From Thermodesulfobacteriota bacterium (GTDB taxonomy: Bacteria > Desulfobacterota_D > UBA1144 > Nemesobacterales > UBA2774): a stretch of 64,000 bases of DNA. The stretch covers positions 1 to 64,000 of the forward strand of contig JBFMCV010000008.1 of the NCBI GenBank assembly GCA_040754335.1. Reading direction: 5' to 3'. A program made the translations under genes and the position numbers. Below, piece after piece: positions 11,301-43,612 of this stretch. Each line of letters opens with the position of its first letter. Positions within the stretch are counted from its first letter, which is position 1. The notes below the pieces were generated by a model. That model had not been told where the DNA came from, searched no databases, and was given only the letters and a program-made list of their open reading frames with translations.

Positions 11301-11479
11301 TCCCCTCCGTCACGGTTTTCAGCTCCGCTCACCGAGCTTCGCCGGACGAGTCGGGGGGACAAGAGGGGAGGGGGCTGCGCCTTCGGCTTCGCCTTCCCAA
11401 GGGGGGTGCAGGATGTCCGGCTTCGCCAAGAGGCTACACCGGGACAAGCAGGATGCAGGATGATCATCCCTCTTGACCC

Positions 11480-12430: not shown

Positions 12431-12444
12431 ATAAAGGACATGAA

Positions 12445-13242: not shown

Positions 13243-13411
13243 GGGAGAGAGGATCACGGATTAAAAATCAAAGCGATGAGTGACTGCGGGCCGTCCTGAA
13301 ATAAAATCAGGACAGGTTTCTGCGGTTACGGGAGAGGTGTATTGTGGATGCGGGCAACAGCGGTTCAATCGGGATAAGAATAGTAAAGATCAAGAGACCG
13401 GAGGGAAAGTA

Positions 13412-14071
13412 ATGCAGAAAGTAAAAATGCCGACAGCCAGGCAAATATCGGCACTCGAGCGCGTGATGAAAGGTGAACGCCTCGAATTATTCCAGAGCGC
13501 GTTCGATGTGCTTCATGACGGCAAGCGGGTAAAGGATAACCCGGAGACAGAATGGAGGGTGGATAATCTCCCATATCTTTACCGCGGGTTCGAGCGGGTC
13601 AACAGAGAAAGCCGAAGCAGCCGCAGCAGGCCGGCGGGAATAGTATCCGCAAGGGTAAAATCCGCGGATGCGGTCCTTGACTTGGGCCTCATCTCGGTCG
13701 ATGTGGTCACCAGCGCCGGCGTGAACTATGTAATAGACGCATTTCAAGGGGTGGGCGGTGCCGCGGTAGCGAACCTGAAATACCACGCGAGCGGGACGAG
13801 CAGCACGGCCGCGGGCACGTCCAATACGGCTCTGGGCACGGAGGTCGGCACTAGAGTTGCCGGGACACAAGCGGAGGGGGCCAGCGCGAATATTTACAAA
13901 ACAGTCGCGACACTGACGTATGGGTCATCGTTCAGTATCGTCGAGTGGGGGCTGTTCTCCGCATCCAGTTCCGGGACATTGTTCGACAGGATAGTGTTCT
14001 CGGCGATATCTGTGGATACGAGCACGGGGATTGAATTTTCGTTCGAATGGACGCTTAACGCGGGAGGGTGA
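13412..14071 (+). CDS. Phage tail-associated structural protein
   Basis: This 219-aa protein starts at 13412 after a GGAGGG RBS; a longer upstream frame is not needed. The N-terminal third is charged. The C-terminal two thirds (LKYHASGTSSTAAGTSNTALGTEVGTR, then VEWGLFSASSSGTLFDRIVFS) match a pattern I know from uncharacterised phage tail or fibre-region proteins, with Gly/Thr/Ser-rich beta structure. It ends 3 bp before the next gene's GTG, so the two are translated together. Probably part of the tail tip or a fibre-attachment protein. Confidence 0.6.
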   Translation: MQKVKMPTARQISALERVMKGERLELFQSAFDVLHDGKRVKDNPETEWRVDNLPYLYRGFERVNRESRSSRSRPAGIVSARVKSADAVLDLGLISVDVVTSAGVNYVIDAFQGVGGAAVANLKYHASGTSSTAAGTSNTALGTEVGTRVAGTQAEGASANIYKTVATLTYGSSFSIVEWGLFSASSSGTLFDRIVFSAISVDTSTGIEFSFEWTLNAGG

Positions 14072-14074
14072 TAA

Positions 14075-23368: not shown

Positions 23369-24676
23369 CTAAACGTTCGGCTCGTCGGTGCCTAGAAGCT
23401 GAGTGAGTTTGTTTCGGATCGCCCGTGTGCACACAGCGCAGAAACGCTTCTTCCCGAAGTCGCGCATGAGACAATTCTTCTCGGGCCTGAACACGCTGCA
23501 GGACTTGTAAAGCGCTCCCTCGAACAGCCCTACCGTGCCTTCCGGTACGGGATGGTTAAAAGGCCCGCCGCCTGAACATTGATTCCTCGACGTAGGGACA
23601 GGCGTCGCCGGCGCAATCAGGTCCCTCCATTTTATTTGGGAGAGCTGTGTTTTTGCGGTCACGTTCGGATAATTTTCCGGATTAAAATCTACATACGGAA
23701 TTTCGTACTCGTCCGCAAGATTGAAAAAACTGTGCCCGAGCTCATGGATGCCGATGAGCGGGGACTGGGGGTTGGTCGAGAATACGGCTACTTCTCCGCC
23801 CGACCCGCCGTATATCCCGCTGTTGACCATAGCGAAAGCGACATGCGCCTCAGGTATCCAGTTGCTCCAGACCTTCTTGGCGGTCGTCCTGTCGACGACG
23901 AGAAGGCGCTTGTTGTTCAGTGCGCCGCAGAAGCTCGCATTGAGATATGTCCTCACGTCTACGGGCGGCGCCCCTCCCTGGCACTGCGCCGGCAGGTCTG
24001 CTCCGCTGTCGGTCGAAGCAATCTTTACGATGTAAACATTGGTCTTTAGCCAGAATTCATTGAAGGGCGGGAAATTTTTGAAAAAGTTTATGAATTTGTC
24101 AGTATCGGTAATAAACTTAGGCATCTCCTCAGCCCTGTAGCCTTCGGCGAGTATGGCGATAGTCCAGCATTCGCTGTCGCTCCCGTGATCGACGATCTTC
24201 TCCTTCCCGAGAATCGTCCCGTTCTCCACTCTTGCTGCGACAGCTATCGGCGGGAGTATTACTTCCGCGGGGTCGATCGTGAATGTGAACGACTGCCTAG
24301 CTATTCTAAAAAACAGCTCCGCCTGGAGAGGCTTGTTTATGATCTCGAGCGTGAAGACGATACCCGGGTCGGGAATCAGGACCGAGAAGGTCGGGTCGGG
24401 GTCTTTGAGGGTTTCGTAACTGATCGGGCTCTCCGCCCCGTCGCCGTAGGACTCTGTTTCGGTGCGGAAGGGATTCTGCAGTCTCTGAATATAGAAAACG
24501 TTGTTTTCCCGGTCGGTTAACTTGACGTAATAACCGTTATACTCGTCCATCTCTTCTATCGGATCGGACGGGGGAGGAAGTATATCGACCCGGGTCTGGG
24601 ATTCGAGAATAATATTGTAGTTCCCGTATCTGAAGTCGAGCCTGAGGCTCTTCCTCCATTTCCTGTTGCCGGTCAT
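23369..24676 (-). CDS. M64 family (IgA-peptidase-like) metallopeptidase
   Basis: A 435-aa protein. At about residues 310-325 it has IHELGHSFFNLADEYE, the HExGH...DEY zinc-binding signature of peptidase family M64. Upstream, SECWTIAILAEGYRAEEMPKF and FKNFPPFNEFWLKTNVYIVKIASTDSGAD are the usual M64 landmarks. The N-terminal 140 residues form a separate beta-rich region (FRYGNYNIILESQTRVD). Six or more cysteines lie near the C-terminus. No clear signal peptide is seen at this start (MTGNRKWRKSLR), though the family is normally exported. Substrate unknown. Confidence 0.85.
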   Translation of the reverse strand: MTGNRKWRKSLRLDFRYGNYNIILESQTRVDILPPPSDPIEEMDEYNGYYVKLTDRENNVFYIQRLQNPFRTETESYGDGAESPISYETLKDPDPTFSVLIPDPGIVFTLEIINKPLQAELFFRIARQSFTFTIDPAEVILPPIAVAARVENGTILGKEKIVDHGSDSECWTIAILAEGYRAEEMPKFITDTDKFINFFKNFPPFNEFWLKTNVYIVKIASTDSGADLPAQCQGGAPPVDVRTYLNASFCGALNNKRLLVVDRTTAKKVWSNWIPEAHVAFAMVNSGIYGGSGGEVAVFSTNPQSPLIGIHELGHSFFNLADEYEIPYVDFNPENYPNVTAKTQLSQIKWRDLIAPATPVPTSRNQCSGGGPFNHPVPEGTVGLFEGALYKSCSVFRPEKNCLMRDFGKKRFCAVCTRAIRNKLTQLLGTDEPNV

Positions 24677-27828: not shown

Positions 27829-27981
27829 ATGAAAAAGGTACTGTTTGCGTTGACTATTACACTGGGGATCGCGCTCGGCGGGATCGTATTGACGACTTCA
27901 AACGTGCTCGCCTGCGGCGGAAAGGACAAGGGCACGACGTCCGAGCAGCCGACGGATTCGGGTGATTCGACCCAGTCCTGA
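27829..27981 (+). CDS. Small secreted or anchored peptide, 50 aa
   Basis: ATG 27829 follows a good RBS (AGGAGG). The N-terminus is a signal sequence (MKKVLFALTITLGIALGGIV) and ends near VLACGGKDKG, so cleavage after VLA or lipidation at the Cys are both possible. The rest is a short Ser/Thr/Asp/Gln tail. A strong terminator follows at 28022, making this a complete single-gene unit. No family is recognised. Confidence 0.65.
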   Translation: MKKVLFALTITLGIALGGIVLTTSNVLACGGKDKGTTSEQPTDSGDSTQS

Positions 27982-28188: not shown

Positions 28189-28446
28189 ATGAGCGAATAT
28201 CCGAAAATCGCCGAAGGCATAGACATAAACGAGGTCGAAGACGGCTACGTCATCTACCAGAGCGAGAAGGACAAGGTGCACTATCTCAACAAGACCGCGG
28301 TGCTCGTGCTCGAAGCATGCACGGGGAAAAATTCTGCGGCGGACATCACCGCGATCGTGAGGGAGGCGTATCAGCTCACGGAGGACCCGGAAAAGGAAGT
28401 CGCCGACTGCCTCGACACTCTAATTCAGGAAGGGCTCGTTAAATAA
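28189..28446 (+). CDS. PqqD-like peptide-binding protein
   Basis: An 85-aa protein. It has the PqqD/RRE features: GIDINEVEDGYVIYQSEKDKVHYLNKTAVLVLEACTGKNS, then a helix (ADITAIVREAYQLTEDPEKEVADCLDTLIQEGL). PqqD-like proteins bind the leader of a peptide substrate and hand it to modifying enzymes. It is the first gene of a cluster with an HprK-like kinase, glycosyltransferases and many leader-bearing small genes, so it is the likely recognition factor for that shared leader. Its stop touches the kinase frame. No obvious RBS beyond weak purines. Confidence 0.85.
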   Translation: MSEYPKIAEGIDINEVEDGYVIYQSEKDKVHYLNKTAVLVLEACTGKNSAADITAIVREAYQLTEDPEKEVADCLDTLIQEGLVK

Positions 28447-29279
28447 TTTACGAACGCGGATACACGCTCCTAGACACCGCATTCACCATACGTACGGACG
28501 GCGAGGAGGCGGCGCGGCTTCTTGATTTCGTAGTGCACGAAGCCGAGCAGGACTTTCCCGTCACGAAAGAGTCGGTGTACGATTTGAACCTCAGGGACGG
28601 CGGGTGTGAAATCCTGAAAAACGGCGAGCTCGCGCATTCCTCGGACGACATCCACAAGTCGATATTCAACCTCCAGTGGCTCATGCACAAGGAGGCTCTC
28701 GCCGGGATAACGGACCGTATCCGCATTCACGCAGGCTGCGGGGAATGGGAGGGGAAGAGGTTCCTCGTCGTCGGGGACAAGGGGGCGGGGAAGACCACTC
28801 TCATGGTCACTCTGCTGCTGGCTGGTTTCCGCGTGGTAGGGGACGAGCTCGCGCTCGTCAGGGACGGGAAGGCCTTGCCGTTCCCTCGGCGGTTCAACAT
28901 AAAGGAAGAGAGCACGCGCCTCCTCACGCAGCTGAAACCGCTCTTCGAGACGCTCCCCTACAACATGACCTACTATAACCACAGGATGTATTCCCTCTCC
29001 CCTCACGACGTCGGCCGCGAATGGAAGATCGACGAGGGCGAGGTGCGCGCCGTATTCTATCTCGTGCCCAACCACGGCGGGGAAACGCGCATCGAGGAGT
29101 GCCCGAAGTACATGATGGTGAACAGGGTCATGCCGATGAGCTTCCTCTCGGAGGAGGACGACCACATGAAGATCGGGCACTTATGCAGGATGATAGACAA
29201 CGCCGAGTGCTATACCATTTATATAGGCGGCCTGGAAGGCGCGGTCTCCGGTTTACAGGAAAAAATGTCCGTGATATAA
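28446..29279 (+). CDS. HprK-like peptide/protein kinase
   Basis: The coding frame runs 277 aa from 28446. It has a P-loop (LVVGDKGAGKTTLMVTLLLAG) and the downstream DELALV acidic motif typical of HPr kinase-like enzymes. Relatives phosphorylate RiPP precursors in paeninodin-type clusters. The frame is clearly coding upstream of the first usual start (GTG 28533), with GYTLLDTAFTIRTDGEEAARLL. No ATG, GTG or TTG lies between the PqqD stop and that GTG; only ATA or ATT codons are available. So either a rare ATT start is used, or a frameshift links it to PqqD, or GTG 28533 is used and part of the N-terminus is lost. Confidence 0.75.
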   Translation: MYERGYTLLDTAFTIRTDGEEAARLLDFVVHEAEQDFPVTKESVYDLNLRDGGCEILKNGELAHSSDDIHKSIFNLQWLMHKEALAGITDRIRIHAGCGEWEGKRFLVVGDKGAGKTTLMVTLLLAGFRVVGDELALVRDGKALPFPRRFNIKEESTRLLTQLKPLFETLPYNMTYYNHRMYSLSPHDVGREWKIDEGEVRAVFYLVPNHGGETRIEECPKYMMVNRVMPMSFLSEEDDHMKIGHLCRMIDNAECYTIYIGGLEGAVSGLQEKMSVI

Positions 29280-29318
29280 TGGGGATAAGAGGTTATCAAA
29301 ATAGCGGGTGGGCGCACG

Positions 29319-29942
29319 ATGAGCGACAAAAAATTTCTGGACGGTATTAACCCCGAAAGGCGGGAGTTCCTGGAAAAAGTAACCAAAGGAGCTTTCATCA
29401 TCCCGACCGTGATCTCCGTGATGATGCTTGACCAGAAGCTCAACCTCACGACTGCCAACGCACAGAGCAACGACTTTGCTCCAGGTCCTTGTTTGTCTTT
29501 CGAGACTCTGATTTCTACACCGCTCGGCAAATTGCCGGTATTCACACTAAAACCCGGAATGCTCGTATATACGCTTGATGCGGACGGCGTCAGGACGGCA
29601 ATGCCGCTCGAGCTCGTATCGAAGGCATTGGTTCCCGCAAGCCATACGCTTTGCCGCCTTGTCCTCGACGACGGCAGGGAAGTGCGCGTGTCGGCCGGGC
29701 ATCCTACCGCTGACAAAAGGAAAATCGGCGATCTCGTTCCCGGGGATATCATCGACGGCTCGGTCGTCATATCTGCCGAAAAGGTCCTTTACTCTGCTGG
29801 CTTCACGTACGACCTGCTCCCTTCCGGGGATACGGGCTATTACTGGGCCGACGGCGTCCTTATGGCAAGCACACTTTCGCCAGGCTTCGGATTCATCGTC
29901 CGGAGGCCCGGTCGGCGGGAAGAGCCGCGCGTTTCCGCCTGA
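29319..29942 (+). CDS. Leader-bearing Hint-domain protein (RiPP-like precursor fused to Hint)
   Basis: A 207-aa protein. Residues 1-50 are the shared leader: charged start, NPERREFLEKVTKG, hydrophobic core (AFIIPTVISVMML), then NLTTANAQS. After NDFAPGP, Cys58 begins a Hint domain: LSFETLISTPLGKLPVFTLKPGMLVYTLD (block A-like), and REVRVSAGHPT with S125-A-G-H128 matching the block B TxxH site, followed by GDIIDGSVV. The end (YYWADGVLMASTL) lacks the His-Asn of splicing inteins. Cys58 and His128 suggest N-terminal thioester chemistry like hedgehog proteins. The leader could instead act as a Tat signal (RRxFL, ANA cleavage). It is next to the kinase and heads the precursor family. Confidence 0.8.
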   Translation: MSDKKFLDGINPERREFLEKVTKGAFIIPTVISVMMLDQKLNLTTANAQSNDFAPGPCLSFETLISTPLGKLPVFTLKPGMLVYTLDADGVRTAMPLELVSKALVPASHTLCRLVLDDGREVRVSAGHPTADKRKIGDLVPGDIIDGSVVISAEKVLYSAGFTYDLLPSGDTGYYWADGVLMASTLSPGFGFIVRRPGRREEPRVSA

Positions 29943-30112
29943 GCGCGATACCGGCGCATCCGAATATTCAATTATCCATTGCCCGGCCGCAGCGGCATTA
30001 CGGATTTCTCCGTATGCACGCCCGGTCTTCCGTAATGATTTTATAAATTATAGTTTCGGACGGTTTATGTGTCCCGCCTCTCCGGTTATTATTAAGCGGA
30101 GGTGAAGCGGAC

Positions 30113-31234
30113 TTGAGCGATATTGTCTTTTCAGCATCCATGATAGTCAGGAACGAGGAGAAATTCCTCGAAGGCTGCCTCGAATCCATAAAGGACGTCG
30201 TCGACGAAATAGTCGTAGTCGACACCGGGTCGAAGGACGCCACGAAGGAGATCGCCGCCCGGTTCGGGGCCAGGCTGTTCGATTTCCCCTGGACGGGCGA
30301 TTTCTCCGCCGCCCGCAACTACGCGCTTGACCGCTGCCGGGGCGAATGGATCCTATACATAGACGCCGACGAGAGGCTCGGGCCCGTGAGCAGGGATGAG
30401 GTCAGGCGGCTGCTGTCGGACAAGCAGAAAGTCGTCTACACGGTCAGGTTCCACCCGATAGGCGGCTACACCGCCTACAAGGAATACCGCATATTCAGGA
30501 ACGACCCACGGATACGTTTCCAGGGCGTGATACACGAGTCGATGCTTTCCTCCGTCATGGCGATGGGTTACGAAGAAGGGCTTGGAATAGGCGAGAGCCC
30601 GCTCGCGATCCACCATACGGGTTACGACGGCGACCTCATGCACAAGCACAGGCGGAACCTCTCCATGCTCGTGAAGCAGATCGAGCGGGAGCCCCGGAGG
30701 ATGTACCTCAGGTGGCAGCTCGGGGTCGCTCAAAAAGGGCTCGGCGACAGGGATGCGGCCGAAAAGACGTGGATGGAAGCCATAGAGATGACGCGCGGCA
30801 AGGAAGCCGTCACCCACGAGGACAGCCACGCCTACTATGAAATGATATGTCTCATTAACGAGAGAGGTGGAGACCCCTCGTGCATTCTCGACGAGGCCCT
30901 GACGCTATTCCCCGATAATTATCTCCTGATCTGGACGAAGGCGGTCAAGCTTGCGCAGGGAGGGCGATTCGATGAAGCCGTTCCGCTTTTCGAAAAGCTC
31001 GTCTCGGTCGACCCCGACGCGCTCGTCGACGGTCCACTTTCTTACAACACAGCCATATTCAGGGAGCTTTCGTACGAGCCTTTAGCGGCCTGCTTTTTCA
31101 AGCTCGGCAGGTACGGCGAGAGCGAAAGGTACTACGCGCTCGCTTCGGGATGCGACCCGGACAACCTCGAATACCGGACGAAGCTCAAGTTCCTGCGCGC
31201 GCTGCTCGAAAAATCCCGGACCCGACATGGATGA
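30113..31234 (+). CDS. GT2 glycosyltransferase with TPR repeats (copy A)
   Basis: A 373-aa protein with TTG start after RBS GGAGGTGAAG. N-terminal GT-A fold: SASMIVRNEEKFLEGCLESI, VVVDTGSKDATKEIA, and a DXD site in ILYIDADERLGP (about residues 77-88). From about residue 190 on there are TPR-like helices (LRWQLGVAQKGLGDRDAAEKT, LLIWTKAVKLAQGGRFDEAVPLFEKLV). The same GT2+TPR layout occurs in peptide S-glycosyltransferases of the SunS type. That and the surrounding leader peptides suggest that it may sugar-modify those peptides. Copy B at 35192 is a close paralogue. Confidence 0.82.
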   Translation: MSDIVFSASMIVRNEEKFLEGCLESIKDVVDEIVVVDTGSKDATKEIAARFGARLFDFPWTGDFSAARNYALDRCRGEWILYIDADERLGPVSRDEVRRLLSDKQKVVYTVRFHPIGGYTAYKEYRIFRNDPRIRFQGVIHESMLSSVMAMGYEEGLGIGESPLAIHHTGYDGDLMHKHRRNLSMLVKQIEREPRRMYLRWQLGVAQKGLGDRDAAEKTWMEAIEMTRGKEAVTHEDSHAYYEMICLINERGGDPSCILDEALTLFPDNYLLIWTKAVKLAQGGRFDEAVPLFEKLVSVDPDALVDGPLSYNTAIFRELSYEPLAACFFKLGRYGESERYYALASGCDPDNLEYRTKLKFLRALLEKSRTRHG

Positions 31235-31958
31235 CAAGCCTCTCATATCATGCCTCTGCATCACGCGCGGAAGGACGAAGCTCCTCGAAAGGGCGGTTCA
31301 GTCCTTCAGGGATCAGACATATCCCAACAAAGAGCTCCTGCTCCTCTACCAGACCGACGACGAAGAGACGGCGGAATACGTGCGATCGATGGAAGACAAT
31401 AATCTCATGCTGGTCGAGGTGCCCTCTTCCGAAAAATTTAATCTGGGGAGATTTAGAAACCGCTCCATTAGCGAGTGCCGCGGGGATTATTTCTGCCAGT
31501 GGGACGACGACGACTGGTCTCACCGCGACAGGCTTTCTTTCCAGATGGACGTCATCGAATCGAGCGGGTTGCCGGCATGCCTCCTGTTTCACTGGCTTAT
31601 GTACGACGAGCGAACGGGTAAATCGTATCTGTCCAACAGGAGACCGTGGGAGGGGTCGCTTCTCTGTAAGAAATCGATACTCGGCGACGATCTGAGATAC
31701 GAGGAAGTAGTGAAGCATGAGGATACGTATCTGGTTACCGAGCTCTTCAAGCGGAGCCTTGTTTTCCCTGTGATGATGCCCAAGCTCTACATATACGTTT
31801 ATCACGGTGACAACTTATGCACGAGAGAGCATTGGGAGAAAATATTCAGGGCTTCAACGGAACTCTCCGCCGACTCTACATCGATAATCAAAGGCATACT
31901 CGATGGAAAATATACGGGGGAGGAGGCGTCGCGCCTGCTGGACGGAATCGAGAAATAA
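31227..31958 (+). CDS. GT2 glycosyltransferase
   Basis: A 243-aa protein overlapping the previous gene by 8 bp. GT-A motifs: ISCLCITRGRTKLLERAVQSFRDQTYPNKELLLLY, then YFCQWDDDDWSHRDRLSFQ, in which DDDD is the metal and nucleotide-sugar site. Unlike copies A and B it lacks TPR repeats. It may add a second sugar, or act as a partner to the next gene. The overlap with copy A shows they are produced together. Confidence 0.85.
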   Translation: MDDKPLISCLCITRGRTKLLERAVQSFRDQTYPNKELLLLYQTDDEETAEYVRSMEDNNLMLVEVPSSEKFNLGRFRNRSISECRGDYFCQWDDDDWSHRDRLSFQMDVIESSGLPACLLFHWLMYDERTGKSYLSNRRPWEGSLLCKKSILGDDLRYEEVVKHEDTYLVTELFKRSLVFPVMMPKLYIYVYHGDNLCTREHWEKIFRASTELSADSTSIIKGILDGKYTGEEASRLLDGIEK

Positions 31959-31981
31959 GACAGCCAAGACATTTTGAGAAC

Positions 31982-33727
31982 ATGGCCATACCAAGAATAA
32001 TTCACCAGACGTTCAGGAGCGGCGATATACCCGGTAAATTCGGCCGGTTCAGGGAGCACCTTATATCCCTGCACCCCGGATGGGAGTATAAATTCTACGA
32101 CGACGAGGCGTGCAGGGGCGCGGTCGAAAAATTCTTCCCCGCGTTCCTGCCCGTATACGACCGGGCGTCCGTGATACAGAAGAGCGATATCTTCCGCGTC
32201 ATAGTCGTTTACGGGGAGGGCGGATTTTACCTCGATATGGACATGGAGTGCCTTAACCCGCTTGATCCGCTGTGCGAATTCAGGTGCGTTTTCGGTGAGG
32301 AGTCTACTCTTTCCGGGGAATACGCCCTCAGGCTCGGGCACAGGGACAGGCTCCGTGTCGCGAACTATATGTTCGGCAGCGAGCCCGGCCACCCTTTCCT
32401 GCTCCGCATACTGAGGAAGATGGCCGGGGAGTCACGCCGCGACATACTCGCGGAGAACGACGTCCTCGAATCGACGGGTCCCGGGCTCGTCACCACTGTA
32501 TATCACGACTGGAAGGATAAGCTAAGGGACGTGGTGCTGCTGCGCAACCTGGACCGCGCGTGCCCGGTGACGGGACACGTCGCCTGTCATTTCGGATACT
32601 ACGCCAGACACCACCACATGGCGTCCTGGAGGTGGGAGCATAAAAACGGCTCGCCCCAGTATGCCGACGCTATAAGGGTGAAACCGGCTGAAGCCGACGT
32701 CGAGCGATTATTCCGGTATATAGATTCTAAACTCAATGGAGCGCAAGTATCCGATGATATATATGTGCTGCGGACGTATGACGACAAGGCTTACGACGGC
32801 TTGACTAATGTATTCAGCCGTTCCAGTCCTGTCGGGATCGTGGTAAAGGACACTAAGAGTCTATCCGGCAAGAAGGTATTGGTCTGCGGCGTCCCGCACT
32901 GCTACGTCTACAGGCTTTCCAGGCAGAATGTTAATGTCGCGTATACGACGTTTGAGTCAAATGCAATCCCCAGTTTCTGGGTCGAATCGCTTAATGCCGA
33001 CTACGCCCGATGCATAGTCCCACACGAATATATAAAGGAGGTATTCATCGCATCGGGGGTGCGGATACCTGTCACGGTCATACAGCAGGGTTTTACGAGG
33101 TACCGGAGGAATGTCCGAATCAAACCGCAGAGCGGTGTCTTCCGTATTGGGTTCCTCGGCGTGCCCTATAACAGGAAAAATTTATTTAAAGTATATCAGG
33201 CGTGTGTGAATCTCCTTGGATCGATACCGGGGCTCAGGCTCGTTGTTCATTCCGCGTTAAAGTATTCCGGTATATACACACCGGAAGTCTACCTCATGGA
33301 GAATTCCCCCTTCGTCGAGTGGACATGGGGCGCAAAGGACGAGGAATGGACTTCGGAATGGCTCAGCCGGCTCTCCTGTTACATCTTCCCTTCGAGCGGG
33401 GAGGGATGGTCGTTCACGCCCCGCGAGAGCCTTTATCTCGGCATACCGACGTTATTGTCCGATATACCCGTGCATAAGGAGATTATCGAGTCCGGATTCT
33501 GCAGGGCCATACCCGTGAGCGGAAAGGAGGAGGCGAAATACGAAGGGAACACCTACGGCCAGTGGGACAGGGTCAGCGTGAACGATATCGAGGAAGCGAT
33601 ATGGGACGTATACCGGAATTACGGGAGCTACCTCATACGCGCCTTGCAAGGGGGCAGGTGGATAGAGAATAAATGGACGAACGAGAGCTCTCAGCAGATG
33701 CTTCTCGAATTCATGCGCTCCCTCTAA
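31982..33727 (+). CDS. Two-domain glycosyltransferase (GT32-like + GT4-like)
   Basis: A 581-aa protein from MAIPRIIHQTF. Domain 1 (about 1-230) has RIIHQTFRSGD, KFYDDEACR and the DXD motif in GGFYLDMDMECL, as in GT32/capsular mannosyl- and glycosyltransferases. Domain 2 (about 270-580) has GT-B features: FESNAIPSFWVESLNADYARCIVPHEY, then WTWGAKDEEWTSEWLSRLSCYIFPSSGEGWSFTPRESLYLGIPTLLSD, the usual GT4 donor-site region. A single chain with two different GT folds suggests adding two sugars in sequence. Weak RBS; starts farther upstream are possible but lack homology. It ends the first half of the cluster. Confidence 0.8.
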   Translation: MAIPRIIHQTFRSGDIPGKFGRFREHLISLHPGWEYKFYDDEACRGAVEKFFPAFLPVYDRASVIQKSDIFRVIVVYGEGGFYLDMDMECLNPLDPLCEFRCVFGEESTLSGEYALRLGHRDRLRVANYMFGSEPGHPFLLRILRKMAGESRRDILAENDVLESTGPGLVTTVYHDWKDKLRDVVLLRNLDRACPVTGHVACHFGYYARHHHMASWRWEHKNGSPQYADAIRVKPAEADVERLFRYIDSKLNGAQVSDDIYVLRTYDDKAYDGLTNVFSRSSPVGIVVKDTKSLSGKKVLVCGVPHCYVYRLSRQNVNVAYTTFESNAIPSFWVESLNADYARCIVPHEYIKEVFIASGVRIPVTVIQQGFTRYRRNVRIKPQSGVFRIGFLGVPYNRKNLFKVYQACVNLLGSIPGLRLVVHSALKYSGIYTPEVYLMENSPFVEWTWGAKDEEWTSEWLSRLSCYIFPSSGEGWSFTPRESLYLGIPTLLSDIPVHKEIIESGFCRAIPVSGKEEAKYEGNTYGQWDRVSVNDIEEAIWDVYRNYGSYLIRALQGGRWIENKWTNESSQQMLLEFMRSL

Positions 33728-33789
33728 GCGGCCGATAACAGCAGGAAAATATAATCCGCTTAACTAGTCCGGAATTGTACGAATATTGC

Positions 33790-33818
33790 TTGTTTATTAA
33801 TCCAAAATATGATATATT
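33790..33818 (+). promoter_or_regulatory. Candidate sigma-70 promoter for precursor genes
   Basis: TTGTTT and TATATT are 17 bp apart in an AT-rich stretch ending about 31 bp before the precursor gene at 33849. The surrounding cluster is GC-rich, so this AT-rich island is itself suggestive. It would allow the precursors to be expressed more strongly than the upstream enzymes. Confidence 0.4.
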
Positions 33819-33848
33819 TTCGGAAAACCTGACTATGGAGGATGGTCC

Positions 33849-34025
33849 ATGAGCGAAAAGAAAATATTCGACGGCGTCAACCCCGAAAGGCGCGAGTTCC
33901 TCGAAAAAGTGACCAAAGGCGCGTTCATCATCCCTACGGTGATCTCCGTGATGATGCTCAACCAGAGGCTCAACCTCACGACGGCCAACGCCCAGAGCAA
34001 CGACGGCGGCGTAGGCGGGGGATAG
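33849..34025 (+). CDS. Leader-bearing precursor peptide 1, 58 aa
   Basis: ATG 33849 with GGAGG upstream. The leader (MSEKKIFDGVNPERREFLEK, hydrophobic core with IIPTVISVMML, LNLTTANAQS) is nearly identical to the first 50 residues of the Hint protein. The tail after ANAQS is only NDGGVGGG. As with the other copies, either the tail is the modified product released from the leader, or the whole is a Tat-exported peptide cleaved after ANA. In the same direction as the enzymes. Confidence 0.8.
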   Translation: MSEKKIFDGVNPERREFLEKVTKGAFIIPTVISVMMLNQRLNLTTANAQSNDGGVGGG

Positions 34026-34110
34026 AGTCCTGTTCCATCCGTGTGTTTTACGTTATAGCTGCTAATGCATATGATTGATATTTAATACTGGAGTTGAAGG
34101 AGAATCACGC

Positions 34111-34278
34111 ATGGACGATAAGAAATTCCTAGACGGCGTTAACCCCGAAAGGCGCGAGTTCCTCGAAAAAGTGACCAAGGGCGCGTTCATCATCCCGACA
34201 GTGATTTCCGTGATGATGCTCAACCAGAAACTCAACCTCACGACGGCCAACGCCCAGAGCAATATGACTGTTCCGTAA
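34111..34278 (+). CDS. Leader-bearing precursor peptide 2, 55 aa
   Basis: ATG 34111, RBS AAGGAGAA. Leader MDDKKFLDGVNPERREFLEK and the same core and ANAQS. The tail is NMTVP, the only copy with Met-Thr-Val. At DNA level the leader is close to precursors 1 and 3 with mostly synonymous changes, which indicates selection on the leader protein sequence. Confidence 0.8.
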   Translation: MDDKKFLDGVNPERREFLEKVTKGAFIIPTVISVMMLNQKLNLTTANAQSNMTVP

Positions 34279-34365
34279 ACGGCGCTGCCGGGGCTAAAAG
34301 TTGTATCTGCTATTACCCCAGCTGCCCGCGCGCTGTAATTCGAATCTCAGAAAGGAGGGTGTCCG

Positions 34366-34527
34366 ATGAGCCAGAAGAAATACCTAGACGGCGTCAACCC
34401 CGAGAGACGCGAGTTCCTCGAAAAAGTGACCAAGGGCGCGTTCATCATCCCTACGGTGATCTCCGTGATGATGCTCAACCAGAGGCTAAACCTCACGACG
34501 GCCAACGCCCAGAGCAACGATACCTGA
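34366..34527 (+). CDS. Leader-bearing precursor peptide 3, 53 aa
   Basis: ATG 34366 after a strong RBS (AAAGGAGGGTG). Leader MSQKKYLDGVNPERREFLEK with identical core. The tail after ANAQS is only NDT, the shortest in the set. If the tail is the product it would be a few residues long; a larger function would have to lie in the leader itself. A glycosyltransferase relic begins 2 bp after its stop. Confidence 0.78.
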   Translation: MSQKKYLDGVNPERREFLEKVTKGAFIIPTVISVMMLNQRLNLTTANAQSNDT

Positions 34528-34528
34528 T

Positions 34529-34625
34529 CCCGGTCATTGTTATCCTTTTGCGCTCAAGCGCTAACCTGTAAACCGGGAATACCGGACGAAGCCGAGGTTC
34601 GTATCCGCGCTCCTCAAGAAACCCT
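34529..34625 (+). pseudogene. Relic of GT2+TPR glycosyltransferase 3' end
   Basis: Translated in frame, this reads HCYPFALKR-stop-PVNREYRTKPRFVSALLKKP, matching the last 30 residues of copy B (RCYSLALERDPANLEYRTKHRLVSALLGKK). At DNA level the stretch 34571-34620 differs from 36241-36290 at about 8 of 50 positions. A stop codon interrupts it. This is the 3' scar of a glycosyltransferase gene lost by deletion, or copied along with the following precursor. Confidence 0.85.
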
Positions 34626-34758
34626 TAACCGTCGGCCGGTATGACCTTGTCTTATTGACCCCACGCATTAATTTGTAATGGATGCGTCAAAGGTTGCAAT
34701 CCGGCGCCATTTTATATATCATAGAGCATAGAGTCAATTCCCCAATGAGGTTAAAACG

Positions 34759-34947
34759 ATGGACGAGAGCAAGAAGTCTTCTAAAAGATACCTCGATGAT
34801 ATGAACCCCGAAAGGCGTGAGTTCTTGGAGAAACTCACGAAAGGCGCGTTCGTCATCCCGACCGTGCTGTCCGTTATGATGCTTAACCAGAAGCTCAACC
34901 TGAATACCGCGAACGCGCAGAGCCAAGATCTAACGAGTCCGCCTTAA
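34759..34947 (+). CDS. Leader-bearing precursor peptide 4, 62 aa
   Basis: ATG 34759, RBS GAGG. It has the longer N-terminus MDESKKSSKRYLDDMNPERR, shared only with precursor 5. Core FVIPTVLSVMML, then LNTANAQS and a tail QDLTSPP. The 70 bp before it match the 70 bp before precursor 5 (36345-36414). With the relic upstream, this shows that the block glycosyltransferase end, spacer and precursor was duplicated. Confidence 0.82.
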   Translation: MDESKKSSKRYLDDMNPERREFLEKLTKGAFVIPTVLSVMMLNQKLNLNTANAQSQDLTSPP

Positions 34948-35191
34948 TAGTTTTGTACTTTTACCGAGGCTTTAATTGCACCCTCTCAAGTGCCAAAGTG
35001 CACTCGTGAGGTGTAGGTCTTTACCCCGCAATGTTCTTCCCAATGCTAATCAAAACCGCAGGGCAGGCAAAAACTCCTTATACATGAGAGAAGCCGCCCG
35101 GTCACCCCTGGGTATCCCACCGAATCCATCCCGCCCGTCCTCTTTTTAATCAGTCCCTACCGGTTATAATTATTTTCCGGGTTAAGCACAA

Positions 35192-36304
35192 TTGAGCAAT
35201 TTATTCCTTTCAGCCGCCATGATAGTGCGAAACGAGGAGCGTTTCGTCGAAGACTGCCTGAAATCGCTCAAAGGCGTTGCGGATGAAATAGTCGTAGTCG
35301 ATACGGGATCGACCGACAGGACTAAGGAGATCGCTGCCGGTTACGGCGCCAGGGTATTCGATTTCCCGTGGATAGACGACTTCTCGGCCGCACGGAACGA
35401 ATCGCTCGAACATTGCCGCGGGGAATGGATAATCTACATCGACGCCGACGAAAGGCTCGGTCCAATCGATAAAGAAGCGGTCAGGGCCGACCTCTCGCGT
35501 CCGGGGTTCGCAGCGTTTACCGTGAAATACCGTCCAATTTCGTGGTTCACTACATTCAGGGAATACAGGATATTCAGGAACGACCCCAGGATAAGGTTTG
35601 AAGGGATAATTCACGAGACCGTGGTCCCGTCTGTTATGAAGGTCTGCGAGGAGGACGGGCTTGCGATAGGGGACTCGGTCTTGGTAGTAGACCACATAGG
35701 CTACGACGGCGATCTGGGACGCAAGCACAGGCGGAATCTGCCGCTGCTCCAGAGGCATGTCGCTAACCTCCCGGAAAACATATTCCTGAGATACAGGCTG
35801 GGGGCGGTGCTCAAGGGGTTAGGCGATACCGAAGGGGCGGAGAGGGAATGGCGGAGGGCGATCGAGACCGTCCGCCGTAGCGATAATCTCATACCCAGGG
35901 ACAGCATGTCGTATTACGACCTGATACGTCTCCTCCTCGATAAGGGTGAGGACGTTACCCCGCTCCTTGAAGAGGCCGAGGCGCTTTTCCCGGACAATTA
36001 CCTGATAATGTGGGCAAAGGGGATGGTGCTCATGCACGGGGGGAGGTTTGATGAGGCGGTCTCTATCTTCGGTCGGCTCACGTCCATCGACCCGGATAAA
36101 CTCGACCCCGGCAGGATCTCGTACGACAGGAGGATATTCAGCGAGTTCTCGTACGAGCCCATGGGGACTTGCTTTTTCAAGCTGGGCAGGCTTGCCGAGA
36201 GCGAGCGCTGTTATTCCCTTGCTCTGGAGCGCGACCCTGCAAACCTGGAATATCGGACGAAGCACAGGCTCGTATCCGCGCTGCTCGGGAAAAAAACCGG
36301 ATAG
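35192..36304 (+). CDS. GT2 glycosyltransferase with TPR repeats (copy B)
   Basis: A 370-aa paralogue of copy A with the same motifs: SAAMIVRNEERFVEDCL, VVVDTGSTDRTKEIA, DXD in IIYIDADERLGPID, and TPR-like helices after about residue 190. TTG start in the same sequence context as copy A (TTGAGCxA). Two closely related enzymes in a cluster with different precursor tails suggest divided substrates or sugars. It is followed by three more precursors, mirroring copy A in the first half. Confidence 0.82.
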   Translation: MSNLFLSAAMIVRNEERFVEDCLKSLKGVADEIVVVDTGSTDRTKEIAAGYGARVFDFPWIDDFSAARNESLEHCRGEWIIYIDADERLGPIDKEAVRADLSRPGFAAFTVKYRPISWFTTFREYRIFRNDPRIRFEGIIHETVVPSVMKVCEEDGLAIGDSVLVVDHIGYDGDLGRKHRRNLPLLQRHVANLPENIFLRYRLGAVLKGLGDTEGAEREWRRAIETVRRSDNLIPRDSMSYYDLIRLLLDKGEDVTPLLEEAEALFPDNYLIMWAKGMVLMHGGRFDEAVSIFGRLTSIDPDKLDPGRISYDRRIFSEFSYEPMGTCFFKLGRLAESERCYSLALERDPANLEYRTKHRLVSALLGKKTG

Positions 36305-36414
36305 CCGGCTTGACCGGATTTCCTTATGAATCCGGAATTGCTGATAATTCAGTTGCAATCAGGCGAAGTTTTATTTATCATTGTATCCAACAAATTCCTA
36401 AAGAGGCTCAACTG

Positions 36415-36609
36415 ATGGACAAGAATAAGAAGTCTTCAAAAAGATTCTTCGACGATATAAGTCCCGACAGGCGCGATTTCCTGGAAAAGCTGACCAAGGG
36501 CGCGTTCATCATCCCGACGGTCATATCCGTGATGATGCTAAACCAGAAGCTCAATATATCGACCGCGAACGCGCAGAGTACGGATGGGATGTCTCCGACC
36601 TCGAATTAA
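36415..36609 (+). CDS. Leader-bearing precursor peptide 5, 64 aa
   Basis: ATG 36415, RBS AGAGG. N-terminus MDKNKKSSKRFFDDISPDRR with RRDFLEK in place of RREFLEK. Core FIIPTVISVMML, NISTANAQS, and a longer tail TDGMSPTSN. Precursor 6 has nearly the same tail (TDEMSPTSN), so the 3' parts are recent copies while the 5' ends differ. Confidence 0.82.
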   Translation: MDKNKKSSKRFFDDISPDRRDFLEKLTKGAFIIPTVISVMMLNQKLNISTANAQSTDGMSPTSN

Positions 36610-36684
36610 TGTATTTCAATTGTTTGCGGCGACGGCTGCATAGAATACTAATTCGAGTAAAAACATTGTGTGAGGAGCTGAAAG

Positions 36685-36864
36685 ATGAGCAACAAAAAAT
36701 TCCTCGACGATATAAATCCCGACAGGCGCGAGTTCATAGAGAAGATTACCAAAGGCGCATTTCTGATACCCACTGTGCTGTCGGTAATGATGCTAAATCA
36801 GAAGCTCAATATATCGACCGCGAACGCGCAGAGTACGGATGAGATGTCTCCAACTTCGAATTAA
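36685..36864 (+). CDS. Leader-bearing precursor peptide 6, 59 aa
   Basis: ATG 36685, RBS GAGGAGCTGA. Leader MSNKKFLDDINPDRREFIEK, core FLIPTVLSVMML, NISTANAQS and tail TDEMSPTSN. Its 5' flank is repeated before precursor 7 and its 3' end matches that of precursor 5, so it is a mosaic of its two neighbours, as expected from unequal crossing-over or gene conversion. Confidence 0.82.
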   Translation: MSNKKFLDDINPDRREFIEKITKGAFLIPTVLSVMMLNQKLNISTANAQSTDEMSPTSN

Positions 36865-36940
36865 CGTATTTCGAAGGTTTATTGCAACGGTTTCAATAGA
36901 ATACCAATTCGAGTAAAAACATTGTGTGAGGAGCTGAAAG

Positions 36941-37114
36941 ATGAGCGACAAAAAATTCCTCGACGATATAAATCCCGACAGGCGCGAGTTCCTGGAAAAG
37001 GTGACCAAGGGCGCGTTCGTCGTCCCGGCCGTCATATCCGTGATGATGCTCGACCAGAAGCTCAACCTCACGACTGCCAACGCCCAGAGCAACGACGCCG
37101 TAACTCCTGGCTGA
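36941..37114 (+). CDS. Leader-bearing precursor peptide 7, 57 aa
   Basis: ATG 36941, RBS GAGGAGCTGA identical to precursor 6. Leader MSDKKFLDDINPDRREFLEK, core FVVPAVISVMML, NLTTANAQS and tail NDAVTPG. It is the only copy with VVPAV in the core. The 195 bp before the nucleotidyltransferase hold no further copy. Confidence 0.82.
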   Translation: MSDKKFLDDINPDRREFLEKVTKGAFVVPAVISVMMLDQKLNLTTANAQSNDAVTPG

Positions 37115-37308
37115 TTTTTCATCCGCGTTTCTGGCAGCTGGATTAACTGCTTTCTGTCGGACCTTTCCGTCCGGCATATCGTTCGTTTTATCTCACAAAA
37201 CTGCGTAATTCCCGATCTATACATCTCACTCGAAATATTCAAGCTTGTTACTGCCTCCCGTATTGGAGATAATAATCACAATACGAGTATGCGCGGTGTA
37301 ATCCCCTC

Positions 37309-38562
37309 ATGAAAAAAGGGAAAGGCTACGGAGGGTGCTGGCCCACACCGGAGCAGGAGCTCCTTCTCAGGGCCTCCCTGCTCGATGGCTCTGGGGCTGT
37401 AGGCGCTTTCCGTGAGTGGAAGGCCACGTCCGACATCGATACCGTGGACCCCGGCTCCTACAGGCTCTTCCCTCTTTTGTACAAGAATCTCTTATCGCAC
37501 GGTGTAGACGACCCGCTCATGAACATTTTCAGGTGGGTCTATGAGAGGACGCTCTCCAACAACGGTACGCTCTACGAAAGGCTCGCGGGACTGCTCTCCG
37601 AATTCAACGCCCGCGGGATGCCGGCCGTTCTCGTCAAAGGCTCCGCTCTCGCGCTCCTGTATTACGGCGACCCCGGCCTCCGCCCGATGATGGACGCCGA
37701 CATCCTCGTGCCCGCCCGGAGGGTGCGCGAGGCGATAGATATGATCACGGCCCTCGGGTGGCGGTCGTCCGTAACCCCGCTCAAGGGCATTTCCGATGCG
37801 AGGCTCCTCTCGAGGCTCGGATGGACTCCGGGGGAAAGGGACGTCAGGGATTACACGGAGGAATACTTCTCGGTCAGGCACGGGCAGGACTTCACGAACC
37901 CCGCGCGGTTCACGATTGACCTCCACTGGCACCTCCTCCACGGGTACAACCGTCCCGACGCCGACGACCTTTTCTGGAAAGGGGCGCGGAATATCAGCGT
38001 GGAAGGAGTTCCGGCGCTCGCGCTCGACCCCGCCGACCAGCTTCTCCAGGTATGCTCGCACGGGGTCGCGTGGAACACCGTGCCGCCGATAAGGTGGGTG
38101 GCCGACGCGGCTGCGATTATTCGTAAAGAAGGGGAGGGGCTCGACTGGGAGAGGCTCATTCACGCAGCGGTGAGGCACGGAAAGGTCCTCCCCGTGAGGG
38201 AAGCGCTCGGTTATCTCGGCCGCTTCCTCGATAAGCCCCTGCCGGACGTCGTCCTCGGGGAGCTCGGCTCCCTGCCCGTATCCGGGGCCGGGCGTTTCGA
38301 ATACCTCGTGAGGACGAGGCCCCCGGGAGTGCTCGACGGGCTGGTCGAGCTCAGGTTCCTCTGGAGGGCCTATTCGAGCGAGAACGGCGGTAAGAATATA
38401 TTTGCGAGGATTTACGGATTCCCCGAATTCCTGGAGCACGTTTTCGGCATGGGGAGCGCCTGGCACCTCGTCCTCTATTCAGGGTATGAATTGGTGCGCC
38501 GAACGGGGAAGATTATCGGCTCTGCTGCGGAGAGGGTCCTGGGAAAGCGCGCGTCTGACTGA
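37309..38562 (+). CDS. Nucleotidyltransferase family 5 protein
   Basis: A 417-aa protein. The nucleotidyltransferase core is near residues 105-135: MPAVLVKGSALALLYYGD, then RPMMDADILVPARRVREA, with D-A-D as the likely metal-binding pair. Downstream, FTIDLHWHLLHGYN and LQVCSHGVAWNTVPPIRWVADAAAI are typical of this family. Related enzymes occur with HprK-like kinases in lasso-peptide clusters, where they are reported to extend phosphorylation. Here it would act with the HprK-like gene at 28446 on the same precursors. Last gene of the cluster. Confidence 0.82.
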   Translation: MKKGKGYGGCWPTPEQELLLRASLLDGSGAVGAFREWKATSDIDTVDPGSYRLFPLLYKNLLSHGVDDPLMNIFRWVYERTLSNNGTLYERLAGLLSEFNARGMPAVLVKGSALALLYYGDPGLRPMMDADILVPARRVREAIDMITALGWRSSVTPLKGISDARLLSRLGWTPGERDVRDYTEEYFSVRHGQDFTNPARFTIDLHWHLLHGYNRPDADDLFWKGARNISVEGVPALALDPADQLLQVCSHGVAWNTVPPIRWVADAAAIIRKEGEGLDWERLIHAAVRHGKVLPVREALGYLGRFLDKPLPDVVLGELGSLPVSGAGRFEYLVRTRPPGVLDGLVELRFLWRAYSSENGGKNIFARIYGFPEFLEHVFGMGSAWHLVLYSGYELVRRTGKIIGSAAERVLGKRASD

Positions 38563-41689: not shown

Positions 41690-41983
41690 ATGAGCGTAAT
41701 CAACAATATCAAAAAAGGCGCTACCCTGGCAGGTATCGCTTCTGCGTTATTTATGGTCGGAGTCAGCGCGAGCGCTGACGTCCCGGCGCAGCCGGCGTCG
41801 TGGGAGAAATGCGCGGGTATAGCGAAAGCGGGTAAGAACGACTGCGGCTCTCTCGACGGCAAGCACGACTGCGCGGGCAAAGCGGCGTCGGACTCGAGCC
41901 CGAACGAATGGGTTTATGTCCCGGCGGGCACATGTGAAAAAATCACCGGCGGCAAAGTCGCAGGCACTGAGCCCGCGAAATAA
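41690..41983 (+). CDS. bufA1: Bufferin precursor (DUF2282)
   Basis: A 97-aa secreted precursor: signal peptide ([19 protein letters not shown]), then a DUF2282 core with four cysteines: [26 protein letters not shown], and VPAGTCEKI. Family members are modified on cysteines by the DUF692 (MNIO) enzyme and secreted to sequester copper. RBS AAAGGAGGGCG. The modification genes bufB and bufC follow at once (10 bp gap). The leader function is carried by the signal peptide. Confidence 0.92.
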
Positions 41984-41993
41984 CGGCCAGGCA

Positions 41994-42839
41994 ATGCTCG
42001 AAACGAACGGAAGCTCGCGCGCTGGTAATCTCAGGGCGGGCATAGGTCTCCGCGAGCCTCATTTGAGGCGGATCATGGAGGACAAGCCCGGCATAGACTG
42101 GCTCGAGATAATCGCGGACAACATCATCGATGCGGACGAGACGACGCTTTCGAGGCTGGATGAGCTGAGGCGCGACTACGCGCTTAGCCTCCACAGCGTA
42201 GGCACCTCGATCGGGTCCGTGGACCCGCTCAACTTCGATTACCTGAAGAGCCTGAAAAGGCTCATAGACAGGCTCGACCCGTTTTCCGTCTCCGAGCACC
42301 TATGCTGGTCGGGCGCGCACGGGGTACATCTCCACGACCTGTTCCCCCTCCCGATGACCGAAGAGACCGTAAGGCACGTAGCCGGACGCATAGAGCGGAT
42401 ACAGGATTTCTTCGGGCGGAGGATATTGATCGAGAACGTTTCGGCTTATACCGAGTTCGAAGAGTCCGAGATGAGCGAGCCCGAGTTCATCACGCGCATT
42501 GCGAGGACGAGCGGGAGCGGCATCCTGCTCGACGTCAACAACATCTTCATCAACTCCTATAATTTCGGCCTCGACGCATTGGAATACGTGGAAAATATCC
42601 CCGGCGATCTCGTGGGCGAGATCCACCTCGGCGGCGGAGAGCAGAGGGACGGCTATATACTGGACGCCCATAACTCGAGGATATGGGACGAGGTGTGGGA
42701 CCTTTACGGGCGCGCAGTCTCACGCTTAGGCGCGGTGCCGACTCTGATAGAGTGGGACAACGACATCCCCGGCCTCGAAGTGCTGCTCGACGAAGCGGAT
42801 AAGGCGAATAGAATCATCGAGTCGATATGCGGGACCTAG
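41994..42839 (+). CDS. bufB: MNIO (DUF692) bufferin-modifying enzyme
   Basis: A 281-aa TIM-barrel protein of the MNIO family, which uses iron to modify cysteines of the precursor. Landmarks: GIGLREPHLRRIMEDKPGIDWLEII, LSLHSVGTSIGS, SVSEHLCWSGAHGVHLHDLFPLP, ILIENVSAY, LLDVNNIFINSYNFG, and HLGGGEQRDGYILDAHNSRIWDEVWDLY. His, Glu, Asp and Asn in these segments are the expected iron ligands. Start taken at ATG 41994; the reading frame extends upstream into bufA1. The stop overlaps bufC. Confidence 0.93.
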   Translation: MLETNGSSRAGNLRAGIGLREPHLRRIMEDKPGIDWLEIIADNIIDADETTLSRLDELRRDYALSLHSVGTSIGSVDPLNFDYLKSLKRLIDRLDPFSVSEHLCWSGAHGVHLHDLFPLPMTEETVRHVAGRIERIQDFFGRRILIENVSAYTEFEESEMSEPEFITRIARTSGSGILLDVNNIFINSYNFGLDALEYVENIPGDLVGEIHLGGGEQRDGYILDAHNSRIWDEVWDLYGRAVSRLGAVPTLIEWDNDIPGLEVLLDEADKANRIIESICGT

Positions 42840-43612
42840 CTGGCATACAAAAGGAATTTTTAGACAGTATCCTGGGCGGCGATACCGGGACTGCGGGGCC
42901 GCACACGCCGTCCGGCTCTTCCGGAGGCGGAAAGTTTTCTGCCGCGCCCTACAGGGACCTCGTCGCAACCAACCACCTGAACGCGCTTAAGGACGTATAC
43001 CCCGTTTGCCTGAGGCTCCTGGGGGAGGGCTATTTCTCGTTCCTGGCCTGGAATTATTTGAAGGACAGGCCGACGAACGACCCCGATCTCAACCGCTACG
43101 GCCACGATTTTCCGGATTTCCTGGAGCACGAAGCCCGGGTGCGGGACGAGCTTAAAGGTCTCGGCTACCTGCCCCAAGTCTCGCGGTTCGAATGGGGCCT
43201 GTATGCGGCGTCCCGTAAAGGTGCGGCCGCCGTCCCGCTCGAGGAAATGGTTTCCAAACTGACGAACTTCGGAGACAGGGACACGGTCTTCTTCCGCCTG
43301 AACCCGTCCCTCTCCCTTATGGAATTCGGCTGCCCCGTCGTACGTATCTGGGAAGAGAACCGCCGCGAGGAAGTCGGCGGGATCGCGCTCGATGAAGCAA
43401 GGGAGTATGTCGTCGTATGGAACGGTAACGGGGACGTTCTTTATAAAACCGTGGATGACGATGCTTACGGATTGCTGAGGCGCATTCGGGAGGGCGTGTC
43501 GTTCTGCGAGCTGAACAGAATTTACAAGGACCGGGAGCAGGAGCTCGAACGCCTCATCGCGCTGTCGATATCAAGCGGCTGGATTGTGGATGTCGAGGAC
43601 GCGGTCCGGTAA
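42827..43612 (+). CDS. bufC: DUF2063 bufferin partner protein
   Basis: A 261-aa protein overlapping bufB by 13 bp. N-terminal DUF2063 features: GIQKEFLDSILGG, ATNHLNALKDVYPVCLRLLGEGYFSFLAWNYL, LNRYGHDFPDFLEHE. Such proteins bind the bufferin precursor and present it to the MNIO enzyme. The C-terminal half is a separate domain (AREYVVVWNGNGDVLYKTVDDDAYGLL). It completes a standard bufA-bufB-bufC operon. Confidence 0.9.
   Translation: MRDLAGIQKEFLDSILGGDTGTAGPHTPSGSSGGGKFSAAPYRDLVATNHLNALKDVYPVCLRLLGEGYFSFLAWNYLKDRPTNDPDLNRYGHDFPDFLEHEARVRDELKGLGYLPQVSRFEWGLYAASRKGAAAVPLEEMVSKLTNFGDRDTVFFRLNPSLSLMEFGCPVVRIWEENRREEVGGIALDEAREYVVVWNGNGDVLYKTVDDDAYGLLRRIREGVSFCELNRIYKDREQELERLIALSISSGWIVDVEDAVR

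Follow-up and report, generated by a model that had tools for sequence, protein, structure and literature searches.

A Candidatus Dadabacteria gene cluster for the probable addition of phosphate and sugars to tiny peptides with twin-arginine-like leaders

What is made by a gene cluster in which eight short genes with a common leader are interspersed with genes for a PqqD-like protein, an HprK-like kinase, four glycosyltransferases and an NTP_transf_5 protein? The cluster spans positions 28189-38562 of the window, the 64,000-nt stretch of contig JBFMCV010000008.1 analysed here, with every gene on the + strand, and it belongs to an uncultured Candidatus Dadabacteria. The original prediction had interpreted these genes as one pathway for modified, exported peptides; all of them were recovered where it had placed them, on one strand, with the open reading frame (ORF) list and profile searches (Table 1). 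Its products are probably tiny peptides decorated with phosphate and sugars, whose shared leader looks as if it served both to dock the modifying enzymes and to direct export. With a probability of roughly 60%, we read it as a pathway for ribosomally synthesized and post-translationally modified peptides (RiPPs) that resembles the linear polyphosphorylated peptides (LPPs) and involves phosphorylation, glycosylation and export by twin-arginine translocation (Tat).

In an alignment of the eight window leaders, 29 positions were invariant, among others R14, R15, F17, F26, P29, V31, Q39, L41, T45, A46, N47, A48, Q49 and S50. The paralogues differed chiefly at silent sites (dS 0.89, dN 0.065, dN/dS 0.073; 37 codons). 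The leaders are therefore peptides under selection, and chance or pseudogene repeats were ruled out. Across 20 leaders of the window's Genome Taxonomy Database (GTDB) family, RR, F17, F26, P29, V31, S33, MML, Q39, L41, T45, ANA and S50 were kept. The motifs first described for the leader apply in general, with local departures: RRxFLEK reads RREFIEK in the copy at 36685, PTVxSVMML begins with PAV in the copy at 36941, and ANAQS, invariant in the window, varies in relatives at its Q (Q/A/N/V/M/E), where ANA and S are constant.

The cores that follow ANA are 5-18 residues long. The Ser after ANAx was found in 26 of 26 cores and is their sole universal hydroxyl acceptor. No Cys occurred in any of the 21 free cores, and just one of the 26 cores ended in Ser or Thr. 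Together, these features point to the invariant Ser as the modification acceptor. Sequons of the N-x-T type (NDT, NMT, NQT, NIT) appear in some family cores, perhaps by chance, perhaps as sites of N-glycosylation; since most cores have no such sequon, N-glycosylation was not adopted. Separately, TIGR04117, the model of the Cys-Xaa-Xaa-Xaa repeat radical SAM target, weakly resembled 9 of the 20 leaders (best E 0.025), and its members may share the same logic.

Sixteen genomes of the GTDB family were searched for the leader, and six contained it (the window genome and five others). The gene order of the cluster was shared by the leader-bearing genomes as far as their contigs reach, with contig breaks in G001, G003 and G007. 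The glycosyltransferase genes were likewise conserved in order and interleaved with leader genes. High-scoring homologues of the PqqD-like protein and the kinase were found in this family only in leader-bearing genomes, and the window-type NTP_transf_5 gene was also present in G002, on a short contig ending beside that gene. A leader search of named genomes returned six loci, five from Candidatus Dadabacteria and one from Thermodesulfobacteriota DHS20C13, which GTDB assigns to the window's own family; by leader sequence alone, this search gave nothing new in other phyla. The original prediction would have been refuted by a leader that is widespread without PqqD, kinase or glycosyltransferase neighbours, and it was not. 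Apart from one orphan leader-Hint gene, the enzyme set accompanied the leader wherever the contig reaches, and this co-occurrence in six genomes of one GTDB family supports a single pathway for modified, exported peptides. Two other types of loci were observed nearby in the taxonomy. A second locus with HprK-like, NTP_transf_5 and glycosyltransferase genes occurs in the same genus (L073 and L074, in G002 and G003), without a recognisable leader peptide. In the same phylum, L075 and L076 combine PqqD-like, HprK-like and NTP_transf_5 genes with an apparent ABC transporter pair, as read from the sequence; no leader peptide was seen in them, and they look like a different system.

The combination of enzymes, which the original prediction did not recognise, was not wholly new: a RiPP recognition element (RRE), an HprK-like kinase and an NTP transferase with a leader of the FxxPxV...NQxL..TT..AQSN type follow the plan of the LPPs of Bacillota, which combine the same three proteins (Popov et al. 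2026; PMC13381572). In the LPPs, the leader carries YxxPxVLxHQxIxFETxxS, and the Ser in the LppA core AQSNWK is phosphorylated by the HprK-like kinase LppK (PMC13381572). Discrete RREs bind lasso and LPP leaders through [Y/W]xxPx[L/V/I/F/A] (PMC13381572), which F26-x-x-P29-x-V31 of the window fits with F as the first aromatic residue. The window's FxxPxV...NQKLNLTTANAQSN resembles the LPP YxxPxV...HQxIxFET-AQSN, and when FxxPxV[IL]-SVMML-NQKLNLTT-ANA-QS was aligned to the LPP motif, the core residues matched with F for Y and two insertions: an aromatic-xxPxV, a Q, two hydrophobic residues, a T and then AQSN, with the invariant Ser at the phospho-position. Both systems also have a discrete RRE, no macrolactam cyclase and surroundings rich in glycosyltransferases.

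Reports of LPPs come from Bacillota alone, where a protease resembling signal peptidase and an exporter are dedicated to the pathway (PMC13381572). In contrast, the ORF list and profile scan revealed no peptidase and no ABC or other exporter gene among the cluster ORFs. Because the SpI-like (SipW-type) leader peptidase and the MsbA-like exporter are missing, the cluster was not filed as an LPP. It further differs in its position outside Bacillota, in the RR[ED]F[LI] and AxA motifs of the leader, in its core length (5-18 versus 45 residues), in having eight precursors plus Hint-fused forms, and in the four glycosyltransferases within the cluster. We call it an LPP-like system with a Tat-like leader, new relative to the published LPPs. 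The phosphorylated lasso peptides paeninodin and pseudomycoidin (PadeK, PsmK, PsmN; PMC9266682) share with it an RRE (B1), an HprK-like kinase and an NTP transferase, the last of which adds hexose to phospho-Ser in the lasso system. A lasso peptide was ruled out: a profile scan of the cluster ORFs found no RiPP cyclase, B2 protease or macrolactam synthetase (C), and the Ser is at core position 2 rather than at the C-terminus.

The kinase and the NTP_transf_5 protein both keep their active-site residues. In the PqqD-like protein, L33, N34, A37 and G46 were conserved in 13 of 13 homologues. Kinase residues H66, G86, K87 and R119 were present in 15 of 15 homologues and D104-E105 in 14 of 15; H66, K87 and D104-E105 resemble the His-Lys-Asp-Asp set found in lasso kinases, and the best Protein Data Bank relatives of the kinase were solved HPr kinases. 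The NTP_transf_5 protein had G111, R125, D129, D131, G150, W223 and D243 in 12 of 12 homologues, so that the G-R-DxD core is kept, and its structural model (pLDDT 66) resembled the nucleotidyltransferases MenT1 and ANT(2'')-Ia. For the GT2+TPR protein tested, the nearest solved relative was GmaR (22ao, E 4e-32), ahead of SunS (7msp, E 7e-17), both being GT2-domain enzymes. GmaR is a flagellin O-GlcNAc transferase. The SunS analogy drawn in the original prediction is consequently weak: GmaR is closer, the SunS-type model TIGR04195 scored 69 bits, far below its 350-bit cut-off, and the putative targets here, unlike those of GmaR and SunS, are short, Ser-containing and Cys-free cores. With no Cys in the free cores, SunS-type S-glycosylation was ruled out as the main chemistry.

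The original prediction overlooked the resemblance of the leader to a twin-arginine signal peptide. The leader has the layout of a Tat signal, with RR[ED]F[LI], a moderately hydrophobic core, a basic residue in the c-region and an AxA end, and RR was invariant in 20 of 20 family leaders. The mean hydropathy of the core was 1.8-1.9 over 17 residues, compared with 1.0-1.7 for twin-arginine signals in the same or related genomes. The FxxPxV RRE motif lies inside this hydrophobic core. TatC is encoded in the window genome, where the search for S26 signal peptidases found a single one, on contig C6. Tat proofreading chaperones of the TorD/DmsD type are cytosolic binders of signal peptides. The arrangement here is similar in its twin arginines, hydrophobic core and AxA end, and in the prediction that a protein of the cytosol occupies the core ahead of export; it differs in that the binder is an RRE of the PqqD fold and the predicted bound motif is a RiPP-type FxxPxV.

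The chemistry, export and function of the pathway, as we infer them, would proceed in four steps. By motif homology, the PqqD-like RRE would bind the leader at F26-x-x-P29-x-V31, adding it as a beta-strand in the manner of lasso and LPP systems. In a second step, the HprK-like kinase would phosphorylate the invariant Ser of ANAxS, presented to it by the RRE; LppA is phosphorylated at this same position. PsmN, an annotated nucleotidyltransferase, is reported to install hexose on phospho-Ser (PMC9266682); likewise, the NTP_transf_5 protein may extend the phosphate with a hexose or a nucleotide-linked group, and the GmaR/SunS-type GT2+TPR enzymes, the GT2 enzyme and the Gly_transf_sug/GT1 protein could assemble a short glycan on the core of 5-18 residues. 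Finally, the leader would double as a twin-arginine-type signal whose hydrophobic core is masked by the RRE until modification is complete, after which the peptide would pass through Tat and be cleaved after ANA by the housekeeping signal peptidase I. Since Tat and this peptidase would serve, no dedicated peptidase or exporter would be needed. The likeliest role for the product is that of a phosphoglycopeptide, exported or tied to the membrane, with a link to surface polysaccharide.

Leaders fused to a Hint domain would fit into the same scheme. The segment between ANA and Cys1 of Hint was 5-9 residues long, inside the range of free cores, and in one case (ESNMTVP, then Cys1) it nearly equalled the free core QSNMTVP. 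Cys1 and the His-containing block-B HPTA were invariant in five Hint proteins, and a Hint profile search gave a match to intein CatC (E 3e-9). An AlphaFold model of the leader-Hint protein had a pLDDT of 41 and was set aside. The C-terminal Asn for full splicing was absent from all five, which have ends of the A[ND]G[VI]xxx[ST]TL type and no HN. As Cys1 and the block-B His are kept and the C-terminal Asn is missing, we infer that the domain cuts itself off at Cys1 rather than splicing, which would free a core of the usual length. The orphan gene mentioned above is a ninth, Hint-fused leader copy on contig C3 of the same genome (G000:C3:307581-307733; L009 9105-9839, - strand), without PqqD, kinase or glycosyltransferase neighbours. 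Its product is presumably modified in trans.

Related leaders were found outside the family in a domain-wide search with the kinase family, in which about 50 loci were inspected for a small ORF with RR/KR + [YF]xxPx[VILM] near HprK. Leader-like ORFs lay beside kinase genes within the window's own phylum, in sister families (L077, RRRLLQIGVYSIPAVLL; L083, RRRLLKIGIYSVPAIMF) and in other phyla (L115, KREFLKKLVKTCAYSVPVIL; L117, RRRFLKTGLVGIGLLPYVAPLV; L126, RREIIKKATKTGVFIIPTMM; L133, KRAFLKKVAAATVFTVPVV), and AxA-like ends recurred with RR/KR in the leaders of other phyla. Such ORFs numbered 10 within 3 kb of HprK and on its strand, where the density in the remaining DNA of these loci predicts 1.4 (P 3e-6); the pattern had itself been derived from part of this set. 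A fresh phylum was therefore searched, and two of its five kinase + PqqD + NTP_transf_5 cassettes had a leader (L171, L174). Mapped onto a 68-kinase tree, the leader trait needed 4 changes, compared with 15.3 for shuffled labels, and none of 500 shuffles was as low. The L133 kinase was sister to the window group on this tree; the L133 cluster unites leader, HprK, PqqD, GT2+TPR and NTP_transf_5, and its GT2+TPR enzyme showed 35% identity to a window GT2+TPR enzyme over 364 aa. Tentatively, and at somewhat less than even odds, a RiPP-like class may extend across several phyla in which the leader is a twin-arginine signal with an RRE motif in its core, the RRE is both docking module and Tat proofreading chaperone, so that export is tied to the completion of phosphorylation at the Ser and of glycosylation, and the leader is removed by the housekeeping signal peptidase I. 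Adjoining the L133 cluster, at 11055-14137 (+), lies a tandem pair of genes for 478-aa proteins that carry clear twin-arginine signals (MKRRRFLK, MQRREFIQ).

Several observations weigh against the LPP-like, Tat-exported interpretation. The alignment to the LPP consensus needs insertions of four and two residues and F for Y. Similarity to the NCBIfam HPr-rel-A pair of HprK-related kinase A and a PqqD-like protein was detectable at scores below the curated cut-offs (59.9 versus 200 bits for TIGR04352, where the shortfall concerns the kinase, and 27.8 versus 35 bits for TIGR04353). LppN gave no detectable effect in the published host (PMC13381572), which makes the NTP_transf_5 step doubtful. Of the remaining fresh-phylum cassettes, L166 had a lasso-like leader without twin arginines and two had none that could be seen. 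Curated Tat models also matched the family leaders weakly: TIGR02811 hit 4 of 20 (best E 0.03) and TIGR01409 none of 20. The last point favours an alternative in which the leader is an RRE-binding leader and membrane anchor only, the modified peptides staying in the inner membrane as glycan-bearing tails or being freed by another peptidase, with RR...AxA coincidental or used for Sec/YidC insertion. Cores of 5-18 residues are short enough for an uncleaved single-span anchor, and the cluster encodes no exporter. However, the invariance of RR within the family, the recurrence of RR/KR with AxA-like ends in other phyla and a hydropathy in keeping with twin-arginine signals of the same or related genomes speak against it, as do the leaders of L171, L133 and L117, which draw Tat models (L171 matched TIGR02811 formate_TAT at E 8e-4). 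PF10518 matched 2 of 14 leaders of outside relatives (best E 0.03). We consider the anchor-only explanation unlikely and, given the weak model matches, the window leader no more than a likely Tat signal peptide.

HprK, PqqD or NTP_transf_5 genes were located near Wza/Wzc-like polysaccharide export genes in L077, L080, L082, L117, L124 and L137, and LPP clusters sit in capsule loci (PMC13381572); this suggests that the cluster product acts at the cell surface. The same neighbourhoods, together with four glycosyltransferases and no RiPP cyclase or exporter, would suit a peptide that is a primer, its modified Ser starting a longer surface polysaccharide rather than belonging to a small natural product. 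But no Wza, Wzc, Wzx or Wzy gene was seen within the window cluster, the peptide itself seems to be selected, to judge by its eight variant cores, and Hint-fused cores would be odd primers, so this option appears rather improbable. Less probable still is that the glycosyltransferases form an unrelated surface-glycan locus and the peptide pathway comprises only PqqD, kinase, NTP_transf_5 and leaders: glycosyltransferases are missing from most distant HprK + PqqD + NTP_transf_5 cassettes with Tat-like leaders, but their interleaved order in other family genomes and the joint occurrence in L133 argue that they belong. Anti-phage defence was dismissed, PADLOC giving just a weak P-loop match (mad8, E 0.002).

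If the LPP-like reading with Tat export holds, LPP logic would extend from Bacillota to a Gram-negative phylum and, through related leaders, to further phyla, and cassettes of HprK, PqqD and NTP_transf_5 that lack an assigned function would have a possible explanation. The related clusters in other phyla hint at an undescribed route by which modified peptides are produced and sent out of the cell. Gating of Tat export by an RRE becomes a testable idea, and the minimal, nearly leader-only precursors, eight in this cluster, are well suited to biochemistry. Literature searches, limited to one library of papers, retrieved no papers on an RRE with twin-arginine signals, on HPr kinase with PqqD and exopolysaccharide, or on Hint with RiPPs.

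Table 1. Genes of the cluster in the order in which they occur, with window coordinates and supporting matches.
Feature	Position	Strand	Evidence
PqqD-like discrete RRE	28189..28446	+	PF05402 E 1.2e-9, 38.8 bits (gathering cut-off 23.4)
HprK-like peptide Ser kinase (putative)	28533..29279	+	TIGR04352 E 2e-16, under curated cut-off
Leader-Hint precursor (leader 29319-29462; core QSNDFAPGP 29463-29489; Hint from Cys58 at 29490)	29319..29942	+	leader identity; PF13403 E 7.5e-4, under cut-off
GT2+TPR glycosyltransferase 1 (GmaR/SunS-like)	30113..31234	+	PF00535 + TPR
GT2 glycosyltransferase, overlapping GT2+TPR 1 gene	31227..31958	+	PF00535 E 7e-12
Two-domain glycosyltransferase, Gly_transf_sug (DXD motif) + GT1	31982..33727	+	PF04488 E 4e-11, PF00534 E 7e-7
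Precursor peptide, core QSNDGGVGGG	33849..34025	+	leader alignment, dN/dS
Precursor peptide, core QSNMTVP	34111..34278	+	leader alignment, dN/dS
Precursor peptide, core QSNDT	34366..34527	+	leader alignment, dN/dS
Precursor peptide, core QSQDLTSPP	34759..34947	+	leader alignment, dN/dS
GT2+TPR glycosyltransferase 2	35192..36304	+	PF00535 E 7e-22 + TPR
Precursor peptide, core QSTDGMSPTSN	36415..36609	+	leader alignment, dN/dS
Precursor peptide, core QSTDEMSPTSN	36685..36864	+	leader alignment, dN/dS
Precursor peptide, core QSNDAVTPG	36941..37114	+	leader alignment, dN/dS
NTP_transf_5 protein (compared with PsmN/LppN-type transferases)	37309..38562	+	PF14907 E 1.9e-39

The start codon of the kinase gene is uncertain, as its frame stays open for about 30 codons upstream of 28533. 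Upstream of the PqqD-like gene, a small protein of 50 aa with a signal-like N-terminus is encoded at 27829-27981 (+); two congeneric genomes conserve it in that position (85-92% identity). A protein with a Peptidase M64 (IgA peptidase family) domain is encoded at 23372-24676 (-; PF09471, E 1.3e-38). A second RiPP-type cluster, a bufferin-like operon, lies 3 kb downstream of the leader cluster (41690-43612, +) and comprises a DUF2282 peptide, an enzyme of the MbnB/TglH/ChrH family (PF05114, E 1.5e-97) and a DUF2063 protein.

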